A stretch of DNA of 46,006 nucleotides. Source: a virus. Position 1 is the first letter of the stretch. Each line of letters opens with the position of its first letter. Of this stretch, positions 1 to 43,468 are shown one piece after another. The notes under the pieces were generated by a model. That model was not told the origin of the DNA, searched no databases, and was given only the letters and a program-made list of their open reading frames with translations. Both the position numbers and the translations under genes were made by a program. The DNA is taken from the IMG/VR virus record IMGVR_UViG_3300044714_000039, positions 1 through 46,006 of that record; one strand, written 5' to 3'.

Positions 1-26
1 TTCCGTTTGCGAGCGGCCTCGTCCAC
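1..26 (-). CDS. 5' fragment of the VRR-NUC-like nuclease gene
   Basis: This is the duplicated start of the gene described at 45543-45905. The GTG start reads leftwards from base 26 and the gene continues across the circle joint. It is not a separate gene; only about eight codons lie in this copy. Confidence 0.85.
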
Positions 27-127
27 TACTCAGCTGCTGCTTCGTAGGCGTGAACGAGCCCGTAGACGCCTTCGCTCACCCGCGCGATCTGACCGCTCTT
101 CTGCAGCGCGGCGAGCCCGGTCGACAG
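1..127. repeat. Terminal direct repeat, left copy (circular closure)
   Basis: Bases 1-127 are identical to bases 45880-46006. The repeat carries the 5' end of the VRR-NUC-like gene (minus strand, 1-26) and the 3' end of the winged-helix gene that starts at 391. A 127-base overlap is the classic sign of a circular assembly graph closed with k=127, so the true unit is 45,879 bp. It could instead be a genuine short terminal repeat, but the exact k-mer length makes that less likely. Confidence 0.95.
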
Positions 128-24665: not shown

Positions 24666-25408
24666 TGGCGGATGAGTACCTGAAAGGGCCCCGCCTGTTT
24701 GAGGAGGAACGCGGCGGTCTGGCGTTTCGGGAGGTTTTCACCCCGAACCGGGAAGGCCCGCTGCCGCGCCCGCGCCCGTCCGGTAAGGGCGGGCCATCGG
24801 TGATCCCGACGCCGGTTGTGAGTTCGGTGTGGTCTACTTCGGATGCCGCTGCCAATGGCATGACGCTCACCAATGGCGGGCTGACGGTGACGCCGTCTGG
24901 TTTTGTTGGCAACCAAACCATACGAGGAAGTACAAGTCATAGTTCTGGCAGGTATTATGTTGAATTTTTGACCAATGTAGCGGCGGTAAACGGGAATATG
25001 ATGTTTGGAATGGCCGATGCAACCTTTAATGCGGCCAATCAATATCCAGGATCGAATGGAATTTCTTTTGGTTTCCAATTGGCTGGAGCAACCTATCAGA
25101 CGACTGGTTTTACCGCTCACTTCACTCCTACAGCGACGCCAAATGCCAATGATGTATTTGCGTTTGCGGTGGATTTTGGTGCTGGCGCAGTCTGGATGGC
25201 TTTAAACAATGTTTGGTATGGCGAAGGTGATCCAACCGTTGGTGTTGGAGTAAATCCGACCATGACTATGAGTGCAGCGCCTGCTCTTGGCGCTACACTT
25301 TTTCCTGCTTTGGGATTTTACGGAACGGGTCAAGGCGTCTGGACCCTTCAGCCGACTGCCGCCAGCCAGAAGTACGCCCCGCCAACCGGGTTCAGCCGAT
25401 GGGGATGA
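24665..25408 (+). CDS. SPRY-like beta-sandwich protein, probable virion surface protein
   Basis: The 247-residue protein has a Pro-rich N-terminus (1-50) and a SPRY/B30.2-like region: SSGRYYVEFLTNVAAVNGNM, MFGMADATFN, NDVFAFAVDFGAGAVWMALN then TLFPALGFYGTG. SPRY folds bind other proteins or sugars. The DNA from 24900 to 25330 is clearly more AT-rich than the flanks and uses different codons, suggesting recent transfer of the domain. ATG 24665 overlaps the previous stop (TGATG). Confidence 0.7.
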   Translation: MADEYLKGPRLFEEERGGLAFREVFTPNREGPLPRPRPSGKGGPSVIPTPVVSSVWSTSDAAANGMTLTNGGLTVTPSGFVGNQTIRGSTSHSSGRYYVEFLTNVAAVNGNMMFGMADATFNAANQYPGSNGISFGFQLAGATYQTTGFTAHFTPTATPNANDVFAFAVDFGAGAVWMALNNVWYGEGDPTVGVGVNPTMTMSAAPALGATLFPALGFYGTGQGVWTLQPTAASQKYAPPTGFSRWG

Positions 25409-25412
25409 TTTG

Positions 25413-26078
25413 ATGCCGTACGACCGAAAGTTCTTCTTTGACTCGGTGCGCAGGGATTTGTTCCGCGGCAATCTGACCCAATCGCAGGTTGATGGGATGA
25501 ATTATCTGCTCGAGGTGTGGGAAAAGCACTTCGAGGTGGCCAATCCCAACGACGGGACGATGTGGTTGGCCTACGCCCTGGCGACCTTCTTCCACGAAAC
25601 CGCGGAGACGATGCAGCCGATCGAGGAATACGGCAAGGGCTCAGGCAAGTCTTACGGCAAGCCGGTCGCGCCGCACAACGTGGCCTATTACGGGCGCGGC
25701 CACGTCCAGCTGACTTGGGACACGAACTACAAGAACGGGCAGCAATTCCTCAAGGATCGCTATGGCGTTCATGCCAACATCTATCCCGAGCCGCACCTGA
25801 TGCTGCACCCGCAGACCTCGGCGCTGATTAGCTACGACGGCATGGTCTACGGCTGGTTCACCGGTGTCGGGTTGCCGAAGTATCTGTCGAAATCGAAGGG
25901 GATCGAGGATCCGATCAACGCGCGCCGGATCGTCAACGGCACCGACAAGGCGCAGACCATCGCCAATTACTACTGGCTCTATAAGAAGGCTCTCAAACAA
26001 ATCCCGGCCGCCGCTCCGATGGTGGAGGCTGAGCTCCCCGGCCTGCCCGCCGGGCCTGCTATGCCGGAGCCGAGCTGA
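25413..26078 (+). CDS. Endolysin, GH19 chitinase-like lysozyme
   Basis: In the 221-residue protein, the catalytic region is AYALATFFHETAETMQPIEE (E62 is the likely acid, E71 the likely base), followed by YYGRGHVQLTWDTNY (92-106), the substrate groove signature of GH19-type phage endolysins. No signal peptide is seen, so the holin must let it through. It cuts glycosidic bonds in peptidoglycan at the end of infection. It lies directly before two small membrane-protein genes. Confidence 0.9.
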   Translation: MPYDRKFFFDSVRRDLFRGNLTQSQVDGMNYLLEVWEKHFEVANPNDGTMWLAYALATFFHETAETMQPIEEYGKGSGKSYGKPVAPHNVAYYGRGHVQLTWDTNYKNGQQFLKDRYGVHANIYPEPHLMLHPQTSALISYDGMVYGWFTGVGLPKYLSKSKGIEDPINARRIVNGTDKAQTIANYYWLYKKALKQIPAAAPMVEAELPGLPAGPAMPEPS

Positions 26079-26575: not shown

Positions 26576-27243
26576 GCAACGGCACGACTGACTATCAGAC
26601 GCTGTGCGCGCAGATCGCCGATTGGGCGAACCGGCAAGATTGGAGTCCGGCTCTTGTCGCGTCGTTCGTCTCTATGGCTGAGCAGAAAATGAATTCCGAC
26701 CTTCGGGTCAGCCGGATGATCGCCACCGCGCAGAACACCGTCACCTGCGGCTGCGCGCCGCTGCCTGACGATTGGCTGGAGATGGATCTCCTTTTGATGG
26801 CCAGCCAGTCGACACCGACCGGCTGGGTGCCGCTGACCTACAAGGCGCGTGACGAGTTCTTCCGCCTGCCTGCCCAGCCCTATTCCGGCACCTATGTCCA
26901 GAACTACAATTCGACGTGGATGAACTACACGATCGAGGGGACGACCCTCTATTTCGGCGGCGCGCCCAACGCGATTGAGGGCACGCTGTTCCAGATGAAT
27001 TACTACCAGGAAGTCCCGGTGATGGCGAACACTGGGAGCTCCTGGGTCTACACCAAATTTCCGCGGCTTTATCTGTTCGCTGCGCTTGCCAACGCGGATC
27101 TGCACGCGGTCGGCGAGGAGCAGACAGCAATGATGCTGGGCCAGGAAGTCGACAAGATGATCCAGCAACTCAACAACGCTTGGATGACTGCTAAGGCAAG
27201 CGGTTCGCGGCTCAAGCGCACCAGAGTGAGATCGTTCGGATGA
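26572..27243 (+). CDS. Tail adaptor (head-tail connector) protein
   Basis: The 223-residue protein begins YQTLCAQIADWANRQDWSPA, then FVSMAEQKMNSDLRVSRMI, followed by LPDDWLEMDLLLM and PRLYLFAALANADLHAVGEE. This is the pattern of the P22 gp4/T7 gp11-type adaptor that seals the portal. The helical bundle and the ALANADL-type helix near the end are typical. It is followed by the tail-fibre gene. Confidence 0.8.
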   Translation: MSNGTTDYQTLCAQIADWANRQDWSPALVASFVSMAEQKMNSDLRVSRMIATAQNTVTCGCAPLPDDWLEMDLLLMASQSTPTGWVPLTYKARDEFFRLPAQPYSGTYVQNYNSTWMNYTIEGTTLYFGGAPNAIEGTLFQMNYYQEVPVMANTGSSWVYTKFPRLYLFAALANADLHAVGEEQTAMMLGQEVDKMIQQLNNAWMTAKASGSRLKRTRVRSFG

Positions 27244-30059
27244 ACGACCAATGGGTTCCCCCGGCTCCCACCACGCCGCCGTCGCCGCCTTCTAACCCGT
27301 TCCCACCGGCGAACAGCTGGAACGATGTCGCTGGTTGCTTGGTCAGCGCCAATCAGCCCTCGATCGTCAGCGGGATCGTCATCAATGGCGTGCCAGCGAC
27401 TATCAGCTCGATTTACTGGCAGGTTTCGCTCAACGACGGCTCGGGCAATTTCCAGATCAACCAGCTCGATGGCGCTGGCAATTTCGTCGGCACATCGATG
27501 CAGGGGTCGGGCGTCGACGGCAGCATGACGGTTGCCCAGGATCCAACCCAACCGTTAGGAGTGGTTACTAAACAATACGCCGACGCTATTCCTCCCGGCG
27601 AAGCGCCGATGGATCAGGGGATCTACGCTCGGTTTATGGGGACGTGGTATTCGCTTCCTGCCTATGTTCAGGAGGCCCCAAGCGGCCAGATCTTTGGCCG
27701 CTTCAACGGCACTTGGGCTCCGGTGCCTGTCCAGACCGATGCGCCGAGCGACGGCAACACCTATGGGCGCTCGAATGCGGCTTGGAACCCGGCGCTGGCG
27801 ATCACCGGCGGCACGATTACCGGCAATCTGACGGTCAATCAGGTTCTGACCGTGCAGGGGTCGAACAGCTTGGTGCTGAACGCCCCGGTCGGCAATCAGC
27901 GTTCGATCCTCGGCATGACGTCGAACATTGCGCGCTGGGGATTGACGCTCGGCGACGGCACTACGGAGGGATTGAACAACGTCGGTTCGAACTTTACTCT
28001 AGCCGCTTACAGCACGACCGGCGCATTCCTCGGCAATTGGCTGACCATCGCGCGCGCGGATGGCTCGACGGTGTTCAACGGGTCGGGCGTCACCATCAAT
28101 GGCGGCCTTTCGGTTAACGGGCTCCTGGCTCTCGCCAGTCCGAACAACCTCGCGATCTACGGCGGCTCGGCCGGGCAGTTTCTAGAGACTAATGGTGCAG
28201 GTGTGCTCTCCTGGCAAACCCCGCCGGGAGCGGGCGGCGGGATCGGAGACGCGCCGACCGATGGCAATGCTTATCTGCGCTCGAATGCAGCCTGGGCGAG
28301 CGGCGGCACAATAGCGGGCACGCTGAATATTTCTCCACCCACCGGCAGTGCCAGTCTGAATTTAAATTCTGGTTCAACCACGAATACCATTTCGCTTACA
28401 ACAGGTTTTAATGCTCTTTTGCAGCTTAATTCTGTAAACGGCCTTTCTGATATTACAATGGGAAAGGCGTCCAGTGGTGGTTATTCGTCTACTATTACAG
28501 GTGTTGTTGGCGCAACGCCGGACACCCGCTGGCGGATTGATTTGGTTGATGCGACCGCCGAAACTGGGGGTAATATTGGCTCTAATTTTGGCATAGTCGC
28601 ATTTGGCGACGATAGTTCGGTGATTTCCACGCCGATTTCGATTGCCCGCGCGACTGGTGTTGTCAATTTTTCGGCGACTCCCACCGTTGCTGGGGTTCCG
28701 ATCGGCGGTGGTGGCATCGCTGACGCGCCCAACGATGGCACGGCTTACGCCAGGAAGAGCGCCGCTTGGGCGCATCTCGCCCATACTGACATCACCGATT
28801 GGACGGCGACGCTCGCCAATTACTATCCGACCAGCAATCCGAGCGGCTATCAGACGGCGGCGAACGTCACCACCGCGCTTGCGCCTTATGCGCTGACTTC
28901 GAGCCTGCCGCCCGCTTCGACGGTGCTGCCGATCATCGATGGGACGGCGGCGATCGGCGTCTCGACGGCTTACGCGCGCGCCGATCACGTTCACCCAGCG
29001 TCGGCGGCGAGCGGCGGCGACACAGTCGACATTGCCTATTTCGGCGATGGGTCGGACGGCGCGGTCAGCATTACCACCACGGTCGTGCTGACCCGTGACA
29101 TGTACTATTCCAATTTGGCGATCAGCGGCGCGGGCATCCTGCAAACAAATGGTTGGCGGGTGTTTGTTTCTGGCGTGCTTGATCTTTCGGCGGCGGGCGT
29201 GGGCGCGATTGCTCCTAACATACCATCAACCGCTGGCGGCAATGGTGCCAGTCCAACAGGCGGAACCTCCGGTTTTGGTAGAGCGGGGACGTTTTTTCAG
29301 ACCCTTAACGGTAATGTTGGAGGTGGAGGGGCTACCGCCGCCAATGGCAGTGCGACCGGCGGTGGTCCAAACAGTGTCTTAGCGCCGGGGGCTCTCGGCG
29401 GCATAGGGGGGTCTGGAGGTCCGGGTGGCATTGGTACTGGCACTGGAACTCCGGGTCCGGGGTCTTCTACTGCCGCTTCCGCTATCGCCCGTTTGCGACT
29501 CTTGCTCACTCTTCCTGTTATGCCTCTCACCACAACAACCGCTCCCATCTATTTTGCTGGTGGTGGCGGCGGTTCAGGCGGTGGCGGGAGTGGGGCCACT
29601 AATGCCGTCAATGGCGGCGGTGGTGGTGGTGGTGGTGGTCCAGCCGGTGCTATTTTCTTGTGGGCGCGCACCATCCTTCGTGGCGCTGGAACAGCGGCGG
29701 GGGTGATCAATTTATCGGGCATGAACGGTGGCAATGGCGGTCCGCTCACAGGTGGCGCTGGTTCGGGTGGCGGAGGCGGGGGCGGGGGCGGCGGTTTTGC
29801 CTATCTCGTCTATCGCTTCCTGACTGGTTCGACCGCGATCAATGCGATCAATCTGTCAGGCGGCAATGGCGGTAACGCCGGGGCCGGGACTGCTGGGCAA
29901 CAAGGGCAGGGTGGGCAGGGCGGACAAGCGGGCTACGCAGTGTTCTGCAACATCGCTACCGACACGATTACGGCGTCGGGCGGCGCGGTGGGTAGTGGGC
30001 CAACCGGTATAAGCAGCGTGACAGGCGGCGTCGGCGGCGTCGGTTCGGTGAACTTATGA
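27240..30059 (+). CDS. Tail fibre with glycine-rich adhesin tip
   Basis: The 939-residue protein has a Pro-rich start, then repeats of the form (D/E)AP-x-DGxxYxRxxxAW (DAPSDGNTYGRSNAAW, DAPTDGNAYLRSNAAW, DAPNDGTAYARKSAAW). A beta-rich shaft follows and, from about residue 650, a glycine-rich end with GGGGGSGGGGSGATNAVNGG and similar runs. Polyglycine sandwich tips of this kind serve as receptor-binding ends in other phage adhesins. The stretch 28330-28700 is AT-rich, probably a swapped shaft module. Likely host-recognition protein. Confidence 0.8.
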   Translation: MNDQWVPPAPTTPPSPPSNPFPPANSWNDVAGCLVSANQPSIVSGIVINGVPATISSIYWQVSLNDGSGNFQINQLDGAGNFVGTSMQGSGVDGSMTVAQDPTQPLGVVTKQYADAIPPGEAPMDQGIYARFMGTWYSLPAYVQEAPSGQIFGRFNGTWAPVPVQTDAPSDGNTYGRSNAAWNPALAITGGTITGNLTVNQVLTVQGSNSLVLNAPVGNQRSILGMTSNIARWGLTLGDGTTEGLNNVGSNFTLAAYSTTGAFLGNWLTIARADGSTVFNGSGVTINGGLSVNGLLALASPNNLAIYGGSAGQFLETNGAGVLSWQTPPGAGGGIGDAPTDGNAYLRSNAAWASGGTIAGTLNISPPTGSASLNLNSGSTTNTISLTTGFNALLQLNSVNGLSDITMGKASSGGYSSTITGVVGATPDTRWRIDLVDATAETGGNIGSNFGIVAFGDDSSVISTPISIARATGVVNFSATPTVAGVPIGGGGIADAPNDGTAYARKSAAWAHLAHTDITDWTATLANYYPTSNPSGYQTAANVTTALAPYALTSSLPPASTVLPIIDGTAAIGVSTAYARADHVHPASAASGGDTVDIAYFGDGSDGAVSITTTVVLTRDMYYSNLAISGAGILQTNGWRVFVSGVLDLSAAGVGAIAPNIPSTAGGNGASPTGGTSGFGRAGTFFQTLNGNVGGGGATAANGSATGGGPNSVLAPGALGGIGGSGGPGGIGTGTGTPGPGSSTAASAIARLRLLLTLPVMPLTTTTAPIYFAGGGGGSGGGGSGATNAVNGGGGGGGGGPAGAIFLWARTILRGAGTAAGVINLSGMNGGNGGPLTGGAGSGGGGGGGGGGFAYLVYRFLTGSTAINAINLSGGNGGNAGAGTAGQQGQGGQGGQAGYAVFCNIATDTITASGGAVGSGPTGISSVTGGVGGVGSVNL

Positions 30060-40556: not shown

Positions 40557-40588
40557 GGCTAGCATGTAGACATGTTTCACATGAGATA

Positions 40589-40617
40589 GGGAGGACGGGT
40601 GCGGCTCCCGTCCTCCC
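40589..40617. terminator. 11-bp hairpin between converging blocks
   Basis: GGGAGGACGGG and CCCGTCCTCCC flank a 7-base loop. It lies between the PEP-CTERM gene's end and the end of the late block, so it can stop transcription from either side. T tracts are absent, so strength is uncertain. Confidence 0.6.
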
Positions 40618-40658
40618 CTCAAACCGTCGCCGCAATCAGCCACGGGGGGTCTAGGCTT

Positions 40659-41309
40659 TCAAACGACAGCGATCCGGCCGGTTCGCGAACGGGAGCCCGC
40701 GAACGCAAGCAGGCCGAAGCCTAGTCCGATCATCACCCAGGTGGAAGTTTCGGGAACCCCGGTAACCAGCTGCGCTGAGCCGCCGAACGACTGCCGCGCC
40801 GCGGTGAAGTCGACGGCGAACTGGATCTCGTCAGACGTAAACGGGCTCGCCCCCGCCGATACCGGCCCAAACGAGCCATCGAGCAGGCCGACCGGGAAGG
40901 TGTGGGTGGCAAGCAGACCGCCATCCGCGAAAGTCGACTCAGTGGTCGGGCCGGGATCGTTGGTCAGCCCATTGACCGTGAAGGTCGAGAGCGTGTTGCC
41001 GGTTCCGGTGATGGCGCTTTGCAGGACATCGACGGTCAAAGTGTGCGCGCCCGAAAAACCAGCCGAGGCGGTCGCGTCGAGCGTGACGCTCGAGAGATCG
41101 GCCTTCGGCAGGATCGGCGAGCCCTGCGCGGCGACCGTGATGTTGGCAAAATTGGCGTCGTTGGCGGTGAGCGAGGCCGCGCCGGTGGTGACCCCGCTGA
41201 TGTCGTCGATCAATGTGCCGTTGTCGAAGATCTCGATTTGCAGTGTCGCGCGCGCGGGCGTGACGCCGATCGCCGCAAGCAACGCGGCCGACAGGATAAG
41301 CTTATTCAT
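40659..41309 (-). CDS. Secreted PEP-CTERM-like protein
   Basis: The 216-residue protein has a signal peptide (MNKLILSAALLAAIGVTPAR, cut near A21), a Thr/Ser/Gly-rich beta domain (DISGVTTGAASLTAND, DAANFANIT-like strands), and an ending VPETSTWVMIGLGFGLLAFA then GSRSR. This is the PEP-CTERM sorting pattern: VPExSTW, a hydrophobic helix, and Arg at the end, processed by host exosortases. AGGAGGG precedes ATG 41309. Just upstream is a strong terminator, so it needs its own promoter or readthrough. Such a gene in a phage suggests change of the host surface. Confidence 0.85.
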   Translation of the reverse strand: MNKLILSAALLAAIGVTPARATLQIEIFDNGTLIDDISGVTTGAASLTANDANFANITVAAQGSPILPKADLSSVTLDATASAGFSGAHTLTVDVLQSAITGTGNTLSTFTVNGLTNDPGPTTESTFADGGLLATHTFPVGLLDGSFGPVSAGASPFTSDEIQFAVDFTAARQSFGGSAQLVTGVPETSTWVMIGLGFGLLAFAGSRSRTGRIAVV

Positions 41310-41323
41310 GTGTCACCCTCCTA

Positions 41324-41351
41324 AAAACGAGCGCCGGCATTATGCCGGCGC
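41324..41351 (-). terminator. Rho-independent terminator before the PEP-CTERM gene
   Basis: On the minus strand GCGCCGGCA and TGCCGGCGC (loop of three) precede TCGTTTTTAGG. The T run directly precedes the AGGAGGG ribosome site of the PEP-CTERM gene. It should end the early transcript arriving from the 41390-42052 gene. Confidence 0.85.
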
Positions 41352-41389
41352 CCTCTGCTCGCTGTCTACAGCCCCAGCGCGGGTTTAGC

Positions 41390-42052
41390 TCACTTCGGCT
41401 GCGGGCGCGCCGGCGGCGTGCGGCCCGGCAGCTGACCGGCAGTCGGCGGACGTCCACCGCCGGGCAAGCCCTGATCGGGTCGGGCGGGAGGCCGCTGTCC
41501 AGGCAAGCCCTGTCCCGGCCGCGGCGGAACGCCAGGGCGCGGGGGTTGCGGGCTCGGCAAACCTTGGTCCGGATGCTCTTCGCCAACGCCATAATCCGGA
41601 TCGACCGGGTGTTCCGGCACGTCGACCACGAAGTAGTGCATCTTCTTGTGGCCGGTGCTGGAAACCACTGCGGCCAGAACCAGCGCCTTGCCTTCAGGAA
41701 CGCCGGGGAGATCCAACGGCGGCCACACCGTGCCGGGGGGCGGATCGACCGGCGGCAGCGGCTGGCCGGCGACCGGCGGCAACCCGACGTCGGGATGCTC
41801 GGGATCGAGCGGCCAGACCGGCAGTTGGCCTGGGTCGCCGCCTTCGCCTTCGCCTTCGTCTACGCCATAGCCGGGGTCGACAGGGCGGCCAGGACGAGCT
41901 GGCAGATGCCCAGGATGACCGGGAGCCCCTGGGAAGCCAGGGAGCCCTTGATCGGGCCTGGATGGACGCCCAGGGCGGCCGGGAAGCTCATGATCGGGGC
42001 CGCCGCCCGGTTGATCGAAAAACTGGATGTAAGCCCAGCTACCTTGTGCCAT
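41390..42052 (-). CDS. Pro/Gly-rich repeat protein, 220 aa
   Basis: The protein holds collagen-like Pro/Gly repeats: PDQGLPGFPGAPGHPG, later PDQGLPSP and PDQGLPGGGRPP, and two related motifs DPGYGVDEG and DPDYGVGEE placed on either side of an ordered core (GKALVLAAVVSSTGHKKMHY then FVVDVPEHP). Similar Pro-rich proteins with a PGTVWPPL segment occur in podoviruses; function unknown. GGAGAA precedes ATG 42052, nine bases after the helicase stop. Confidence 0.75.
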   Translation of the reverse strand: MAQGSWAYIQFFDQPGGGPDHELPGRPGRPSRPDQGLPGFPGAPGHPGHLPARPGRPVDPGYGVDEGEGEGGDPGQLPVWPLDPEHPDVGLPPVAGQPLPPVDPPPGTVWPPLDLPGVPEGKALVLAAVVSSTGHKKMHYFVVDVPEHPVDPDYGVGEEHPDQGLPSPQPPRPGVPPRPGQGLPGQRPPARPDQGLPGGGRPPTAGQLPGRTPPARPQPK

Positions 42053-42061
42053 GCGTTTCTC

Positions 42062-43468
42062 CTATGCTGGTTCAGCCACCTTGAGGTTTTTGAATACGGA
42101 TCTGTAAAGAGCATCCTTGCGTTGCAGGGCTTTGACAATCCGCCGATCCAAAGGCGAGCCAGAGAGGTCGATGTACAGCACCCGTTCGCCGGTCTGGCCG
42201 CGCCGGTGGATGCGGTCTTCTATCTGGTCCCTGGTGTCGGCGCTGTAGCTATTTTCAAAAAAGATCATCGTTCGGCACAGATCATCCGGCCCCGGGCCGC
42301 CGAGCAGGGTATGGCCGTACTTGCTGGCCTCAGCCTGGAGGAGGATGATCCGGCAATGGGGATCGGTGTTGAAGCGCCGCTTCTGGTCCTCGACGTCGGC
42401 GGACTTCATCCCGCCTTTGATCCAGGCGCAATCGTGGGACGCCAGCGCTCTGATCAAGAGGTCGAGGACCGGCCGATGACGGTAGACGATGCAGACCTTG
42501 CCCTCGACCTCCTCGTCGAGCAGCTGCTGCAGAAGCTTGAGCCGGGGGTTCTCAGCTGGGCGCACCAGCTCATGAACGTCACCGGACTGGTCGTATATGA
42601 AGCCAACCTGGATTTGGGCGAGTTTCTCGTATTTGGCTATAGCGACGTCTACCGTGACGTAGCCCTGTTCGATGGCGAGCAGGAAGTCATGCTCCATCGA
42701 GGCGTACTGGCGCAGCTGCTCGGTCGACATCTGATAGTCGCGGATAGTGAAGTCCTTGCGCGGCAGCTCGGGCAACCAGTCCTTCTTCTTCGCTTGGAAC
42801 ACCACAGGCTTCATGATCAAGGCCAATTGCTCGGTGTTCTTGGCGTCGACCACCTCCTTCATTTGCCAACCGCCCATCACGCAAAACGCGCCGCGGAAGG
42901 CATAGAAGTTTCGGCCCTCAAACAGGCCGATCGCCCTTAGCTGCCCCCATAGATCCTGCGGTCCTTGGGTCTGCGGCCGGCCGGTCAGGCAGCGCACCCA
43001 AGTGCAGACCCGCGTCAGCCAATGGACCGCCTTGGTTTGCTGGCTCCGATTGCCTTTGATCTGGATACTCTCGTCGATCACCAAATAGGTCCGGCCACGT
43101 TCAGCCCACATGATCATCGCCTTGAGGACGTTGGGCATGCGCAGGGCTTCGTAGTTCAGGATGAACACCGGCGCCCGGTTGCGGCCCTTGAGGTTGACGA
43201 ACTCGGCGGCCTTCTTTTTTTTCGACGATTGAAACACATGGGCGTCGAATTGAAACCCGTGTTTTTCGATCTCGTCGATCCAGCCTTCCTTGAAGGTGTT
43301 GGGGCAGATCACGATCATCCGGTCAGCCTCGCCGGCCAGTGTATAGCCCTCGAATTCAGCCAGCGCGCATAGGGTTTTCCCAAGTCCTTGTTCTAAGAAC
43401 CAACCTACTCCGGGTTTGCTTTTGGCGAAATCGAGCGCCGCGACTTGGACCGGGTCGAGTTGGCTCAC
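42062..43468 (-). CDS. SNF2-type (superfamily 2) DNA helicase/translocase
   Basis: In the 468-residue protein, Walker A is EQGLGKT (26-32), motif II is VIDES (130-134), motif III-like TGRPQTQGP near 155-165, and motif VI DQIEDRIHRRGQT near the C-terminus. These are the hallmarks of SNF2/Rad54-like ATPases, as seen in many phages near replication genes. GTG 43468 overlaps the previous stop (GTGA), with GGAGAG upstream. Likely roles are replication restart, recombination or clearing of proteins from DNA. Confidence 0.9.
   Translation of the reverse strand: MSQLDPVQVAALDFAKSKPGVGWFLEQGLGKTLCALAEFEGYTLAGEADRMIVICPNTFKEGWIDEIEKHGFQFDAHVFQSSKKKKAAEFVNLKGRNRAPVFILNYEALRMPNVLKAMIMWAERGRTYLVIDESIQIKGNRSQQTKAVHWLTRVCTWVRCLTGRPQTQGPQDLWGQLRAIGLFEGRNFYAFRGAFCVMGGWQMKEVVDAKNTEQLALIMKPVVFQAKKKDWLPELPRKDFTIRDYQMSTEQLRQYASMEHDFLLAIEQGYVTVDVAIAKYEKLAQIQVGFIYDQSGDVHELVRPAENPRLKLLQQLLDEEVEGKVCIVYRHRPVLDLLIRALASHDCAWIKGGMKSADVEDQKRRFNTDPHCRIILLQAEASKYGHTLLGGPGPDDLCRTMIFFENSYSADTRDQIEDRIHRRGQTGERVLYIDLSGSPLDRRIVKALQRKDALYRSVFKNLKVAEPA

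Follow-up and report, generated by a model that had tools for sequence, protein, structure and literature searches.

The superinfection-exclusion proteins Llp of phage T5 and those of the Cor type reach the outer membrane as lipoproteins. The PEP-CTERM/exosortase (EpsH) system is a protein-sorting system of Gram-negative bacteria (Haft 2006, PMC1569441; TIGR02595, NF035944, PF07589, PF09721), and bacterial PEP-CTERM proteins have been tied to polysaccharide bound at the cell surface and to flocs (PMC1569441, PMC9850573, PMC12188702), binding polysaccharide to the cell or promoting flocs (PMC9850573, PMC12188702). Here we describe a phage gene, called the cargo gene below, whose product shares the layout of these proteins: a signal peptide, a body without known homology, a PEP motif, a helix and a basic tail. 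It lies in a 46,006-nucleotide stretch of DNA (the window) that comes from a soil phage. A direct terminal repeat (1..127), identical to the last 127 bp and of the assembly-overlap type, indicates that the window is a complete, circularly permuted genome of ~45.9 kb, and terminase, SU10-type portal, scaffold, major head, tail-fibre, ejection and endolysin proteins are encoded in it. The genome is podovirus-like, and a 939-aa protein at 27240-30059 carries a fibritin C-terminal (foldon-like) match in mid-protein.

The cargo gene occupies 40659..41309 on the minus strand, behind an AGGAGG ribosome-binding site (41317..41322, minus strand). The earlier note had placed a 216-residue product with a signal peptide and a PEP-CTERM-like ending at this position without naming a strand; the reading frame is confirmed, and homologues 71-99% identical to its product are found at about 60 viral loci. 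The N-terminus is a hydrophobic signal sequence, MNKLILSAALLAAIGVTPARA followed by T, with a predicted cleavage site between ARA and T (residues 19-22), so that residues 1-21 (41247..41309, minus strand) form the putative Sec signal peptide. Its hydrophobic character is retained across the aligned homologues despite varying residues. The C-terminus reads GVPETSTWVMIGLGFGLLAFAGSRSRTGRIAVV, in which residues 185-211 (40677..40757, minus strand) make up the sorting signal: a VPETSTW motif, a hydrophobic helix and an arginine tail, all at the extreme end of the protein. Inspection of the sequence and the alignment revealed no further transmembrane segment between the signal peptide and this tail. 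The mature body (residues 22-183; 40761..41246, minus strand) is predicted with low confidence to be beta-rich, both structure models being poor (pLDDT 54 and 48). Fold and sequence searches of the PDB gave nothing credible for the cargo protein, the PADLOC defence models did not match it and the mature body alone matched no family in the model search.

The fit to the PEP-CTERM pattern claimed in the earlier note holds through the relatives of the window copy rather than through that copy itself, whose motif is slightly degenerate (PET). The window copy falls below the curated cut-offs of PF07589 (15.4 bits, cut-off 20.7), NF035944 (16.0 bits, cut-off 35) and NF038126 (25.5 bits, cut-off 50), and TIGR02595 is not listed among its model matches. 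Nearly all relatives end in a canonical VPEPSTWAM, a helix and an RRR tail. Several close ones pass TIGR02595, the model type named in the earlier note, at its cut-off of 16, with 28.1 (L006), 21.4 (L027), 21.5 (L065), 24.3 (L022) and 22.1 bits (L047), and two also pass NF035944 (L047, 35.5 bits; L065, 39.1 bits). Membership of the NF038126 FxDxF family is not indicated, the best homologue scoring 45.5 bits against a cut-off of 50 and the body alone giving no match. A PEP-CTERM rule, which also admits TPELSTWAM tails, matched 178 of 12,892 viral ORFs in a six-frame scan versus 1 in shuffled proteins. In one homologue (L054:1339-1995) the tail is replaced by VVPGPVVGAGLPGVIVGCGFLVLLAMTRRKAR, which is matched by no PEP-CTERM model and resembles no tail in the fetched host loci; possibly it serves as a different kind of sorting signal.

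The scan of viral contigs yielded 59 loci with proteins 71-99% identical to the cargo protein; a few further loci, three of them at 53-58%, came from later scans. These counts are not independent, since a restricted number of metagenome series supplied the contigs. Fifteen representative genomes fell into at least six lineages with GC contents of 41-66%. Any two lineages mostly have 1-4 of 38-124 proteins in common, rising to as many as 10 where the 80-kb lineage is involved. No family but the cargo protein occurs in all six, and its mean cross-lineage identity is 81%. The other widespread genes encode the PDQGLP-repeat protein (five lineages, ~46%) and endolysins (~78%), represented in the window by a GH19-like endolysin at 25272..26078 on the plus strand (81% best, mean 78% across lineages). 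In an alignment of 31 homologues, 97 of the 99 invariant columns fall within residues 21-183 and the remaining two belong to the tail, which indicates that the body is the functional part. Cross-lineage dN/dS is ~0.1 (roughly 0.05-0.2 among pairs 75-86% identical), and most dS values are close to 1 or higher and so near saturation; judged from these ratios, the cargo gene is under purifying selection. Together with the spread over six lineages, they point to an old gene, mobile between phages and selected for its body. Neither the cargo protein nor a second cargo family (family-1) had a match in the isolated-phage collection. No cellular relative of the body was confirmed in a limited scan of the genome collection with two peptide patterns, and in a profile search of 300 Xanthobacteraceae genomes the body had no homologue, the matches being to the tail apart from a few weak longer ones.

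In the window lineage the slot holding the cargo gene is bounded by an SNF2-type DNA helicase (42062..43468, minus strand). Among 29 close helicase relatives (identity of 68% or more, and enough sequence downstream), 15 carry the cargo family here, 11 a different PEP-CTERM protein, sometimes two in tandem, and 3 none; two of the PEP-CTERM ORFs were called with over-long starts. More distant helicase relatives (45-58%) mostly have no PEP-CTERM gene in the slot. In a second lineage the slot follows the portal gene, and its 29 close relatives divide into 9 with the cargo family, 14 with other PEP-CTERM proteins and 6 without. A PEP-CTERM protein thus fills the slot in 26/29 close helicase and 23/29 close portal relatives, and elsewhere in the loci of both probe sets there is none, apart from the helicase-slot ORFs with over-long starts. 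In all, 80 unique PEP-CTERM proteins divide into ten body families, several of which are seen in the slot; representatives of the other families match NF035944 or TIGR02595, several above cut-off, and two families show weak matches, far below cut-off, to NF033554. As read from these gene orders, the slot is a hotspot that exchanges PEP-CTERM proteins in two lineages.

Several further observations concern the slot and its surroundings. The Gly/Pro-rich PDQGLP-repeat protein, encoded in the window at 41390..42052 on the minus strand, often lies beside a PEP-CTERM gene in several lineages (window, L006, L010, L012, L018, L021, L027, L034, L035 and L051); it has a conserved core, PPG-x-WPPL ... 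GKA ... V, and no signal peptide. Similar proline-rich ORFs stand beside other PEP-CTERM bodies (L282, L284, L285) and, in one slot, alone (L373). At L319, ~620-1400 bases after the portal gene, the cargo ORF seemingly loses its PEP-CTERM tail, probably through a frameshift. Three loci (L333, L339, L346) have no PEP-CTERM gene 3' of the portal, and HNH-endonuclease-like ORFs, identified by eye, lie near the slot; these could possibly be a means of gene exchange there. In the 78-kb lineage, the phage of L012 encodes a second PEP-CTERM protein with another body (L208:7870-8613), 1.2 kb downstream of the first, and in the 80-kb lineage a small LuxR/GerE-type HTH protein (L055:10681-10986) converges on the PEP-CTERM gene.

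The signals around the gene vary by lineage. A terminator-like hairpin (41329..41353, minus strand; 11 pairs, -22.8 kcal/mol, then TTTTT) ends the preceding proline-rich gene directly upstream of the cargo ribosome-binding site, in a region where terminator-like sites are not above chance (1 found vs 1.5 expected). The equivalent hairpin has an altered stem sequence in L034 and L039-L043, yet is kept. A second hairpin downstream (40588..40618, minus strand; -25.6 kcal/mol) lies between converging operons and has no T-run after it; hairpins with T-runs are found 3' of some other cargo copies. A putative sigma-70-like promoter, TAGACA-18-CATAAT (41339..41368, minus strand; 10/12 match), overlaps the upstream hairpin. 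Such promoters, scoring at least 10/12, stand directly upstream of the cargo gene at 6 of 29 loci (window, L006, L046, L007, L042 and L018) compared with 6 of 385 other genes, making early expression from the host polymerase plausible at these loci. In the portal lineage the cargo gene sits within the structural operon, where its expression would be late. Both hairpins of the earlier note are present, and the isolation by a terminator that it had described applies only to close relatives of the window; other lineages have a sigma-70-like promoter in front of the gene or place it in a structural operon, so that terminator isolation appears to be a property of the window's subgroup.

No tyrosine integrase and no exosortase was found in the 36 phage records that carry the cargo gene. 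Proteins of the serine-resolvase family occur in four records (G006, G009, G012 and G016) of the 70-80-kb lineage of L012, which may therefore not be strictly virulent. The sole tRNA in the phage records scanned is a tRNA-Pro(GGG) in a 64-kb phage (L078:13626-13704).

Sorting would thus depend on a host enzyme. Related isolated phages have hosts in the Hyphomicrobiales: for proteins of the window lineage and two others, the closest named phages mostly come from Ochrobactrum, Sinorhizobium or Rhizobium, and such phages are among the closest for four of the proteins tested. Searching at codon level for the tail motif brought up 84 genome contigs, almost all of them alphaproteobacterial, a Bradyrhizobium among them, and an exosortase was present in all six of the motif-bearing genomes tested. 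The exosortase that the earlier note had proposed to look for in predicted hosts was found in 9 of 300 genomes of a plausible host family, the Xanthobacteraceae (the Bradyrhizobium family); six of the nine also have phage-like PEP-CTERM tails. By these comparisons the hosts are likely exosortase-bearing Hyphomicrobiales. Because relatives pass the models, the genes sit in complete phage genomes and a plausible host group has exosortases, the core of the earlier note, a phage-encoded protein of the exosortase route, is upheld: that the protein is built for exosortase sorting is strongly supported by its predicted architecture. The superinfection block or biofilm change that the note had suggested would be a further, conjectural step.

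From this architecture and the known PEP-CTERM model (PMC1569441) we infer export, cleavage and a final location. Sec would export the cargo protein during infection, and the C-terminal helix would hold it in the inner membrane, where the host exosortase (EpsH/Xrt) would read the PEP-type motif and cut off the tail. The mature beta-rich body would then be passed to the outer surface or the extracellular polysaccharide and would most likely alter the cell surface there, hiding a receptor or capsule so that superinfection is prevented or fewer progeny are lost to debris. The slot after the helicase, or in another lineage after the portal, is on this reading a hotspot where phages of exosortase-bearing Alphaproteobacteria swap such cargo. 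A closely similar protein in six otherwise unrelated lineages and other tagged proteins in the same slot make it very probable that the surface-sorting machinery of the host is used by these phages to alter the surface of the infected cell. We infer this surface function and the exact host; a conserved body, and alternative bodies that swap at one locus, make a surface change the most likely use. Taken as a whole, the reading that the protein is cargo for the host exosortase, altering the envelope or matrix of the infected cell and plausibly masking receptors against superinfection, is in our judgement reasonably probable. Against it stand the L054 tail, the copy in the structural operon, the window copy below the cut-offs, and the lack of a PEP-CTERM gene in 3 of the 29 close helicase relatives as well as in most of the distant relatives.

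Other roles were weighed against the same evidence. The tail could act as a decoy, flooding the host exosortase so that host PEP-CTERM proteins go undisplayed and a weaker matrix or weaker flocs aid spread, with the body of minor importance. The tails do closely resemble those of exosortase-bearing Bradyrhizobium-type genomes, which are rich in such proteins; a tail alone would suffice for this purpose, however, and the strong conservation lies in the body (97/99 invariant columns; dN/dS ~0.1), leaving a decoy quite improbable. A membrane-anchored periplasmic protein that aids lysis or disruption of the outer membrane would agree with the position of the gene near endolysin genes in some lineages (e.g. 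L012, L027, L024, L046). In the window lineage, by contrast, the endolysin is 15 kb off, the portal lineage has no lysis gene beside the cargo gene either, the body families interchange in the slot, and the tail suits removal by an exosortase rather than stable anchoring. We regard such a role in egress as unlikely.

A structural or decoration protein of the virion is suggested by one lineage (L047), where the portal gene and that for the major head protein flank the cargo gene. Its product has a signal peptide and a membrane tail, which speak against such a role, as do the location outside structural operons in other lineages and the absence of the gene from some close relatives, and we give this role very little credence. 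PEP-CTERM proteins are common in some Alphaproteobacteria, which would fit a gene recently taken up from a host, or contaminating host DNA, that plays no part in the phage. No cellular homologue of the body was seen in the limited genome-collection scan or in the 300 Xanthobacteraceae genomes, and the gene is found in complete phage genomes and in six lineages, where purifying selection acts on it and dS nears saturation; contamination was rejected on these grounds, and this explanation as a whole is highly improbable.

The preferred reading, in which the protein is cargo for the host exosortase, can be extended to a broader proposal that we hold more tentatively, at slightly less than an even chance. 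Mostly virulent phages of exosortase-bearing Alphaproteobacteria would keep a dedicated, exchangeable PEP-CTERM slot, often with the PDQGLP-repeat protein; export through the host exosortase would re-coat the cell, and the alternative bodies would serve as swappable specificities when phages compete. If this is true, the exosortase pathway, which has few functional handles, would be a phage route to the host surface, the slot would provide a ready natural set of cargo for testing exosortase function, and exosortase status would predict phage-host pairing. The highly conserved phage bodies would mark something that has to function on the exterior of these soil bacteria.

The open literature, covered incompletely and mainly through titles and abstracts, gave no description of phage-encoded PEP-CTERM proteins. 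Ochrobactrum phage vB_OspP_OH (Wolominvirus), the closest named relative by the window portal (38%) and the slot-adjacent helicase (44%), has an empty slot in which the helicase is followed by ~125 bp and a converging gene. The cellular protein PepA of Aquincola and Zoogloea, which is associated with flocculation, resembles the phage cargo in its exosortase-type tail and likely association with the surface or polysaccharide, but it is encoded beside prsT (PMC9850573) and has an unrelated body, the phage cargo giving no more than the weak NF033554 matches of two other families. As in the bacterial PEP-CTERM/exosortase (EpsH) system, an exosortase is present in plausible hosts; unlike it, the cargo is encoded by phages that have no exosortase of their own, as one or two genes in an exchangeable slot, with bodies not found in the cells searched. 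By description, the cargo protein is also comparable to T5 Llp and the Cor-type proteins, being likewise secreted, encoded by a phage and expected to work at the surface of the infected cell; the likeness is one of role, with no homology claimed, and the route differs, an exosortase tail taking the place of a lipoprotein signal. PEP-CTERM sorting and phage surface modification are each known; what appears to be new is that the two come together in an exchangeable phage slot.
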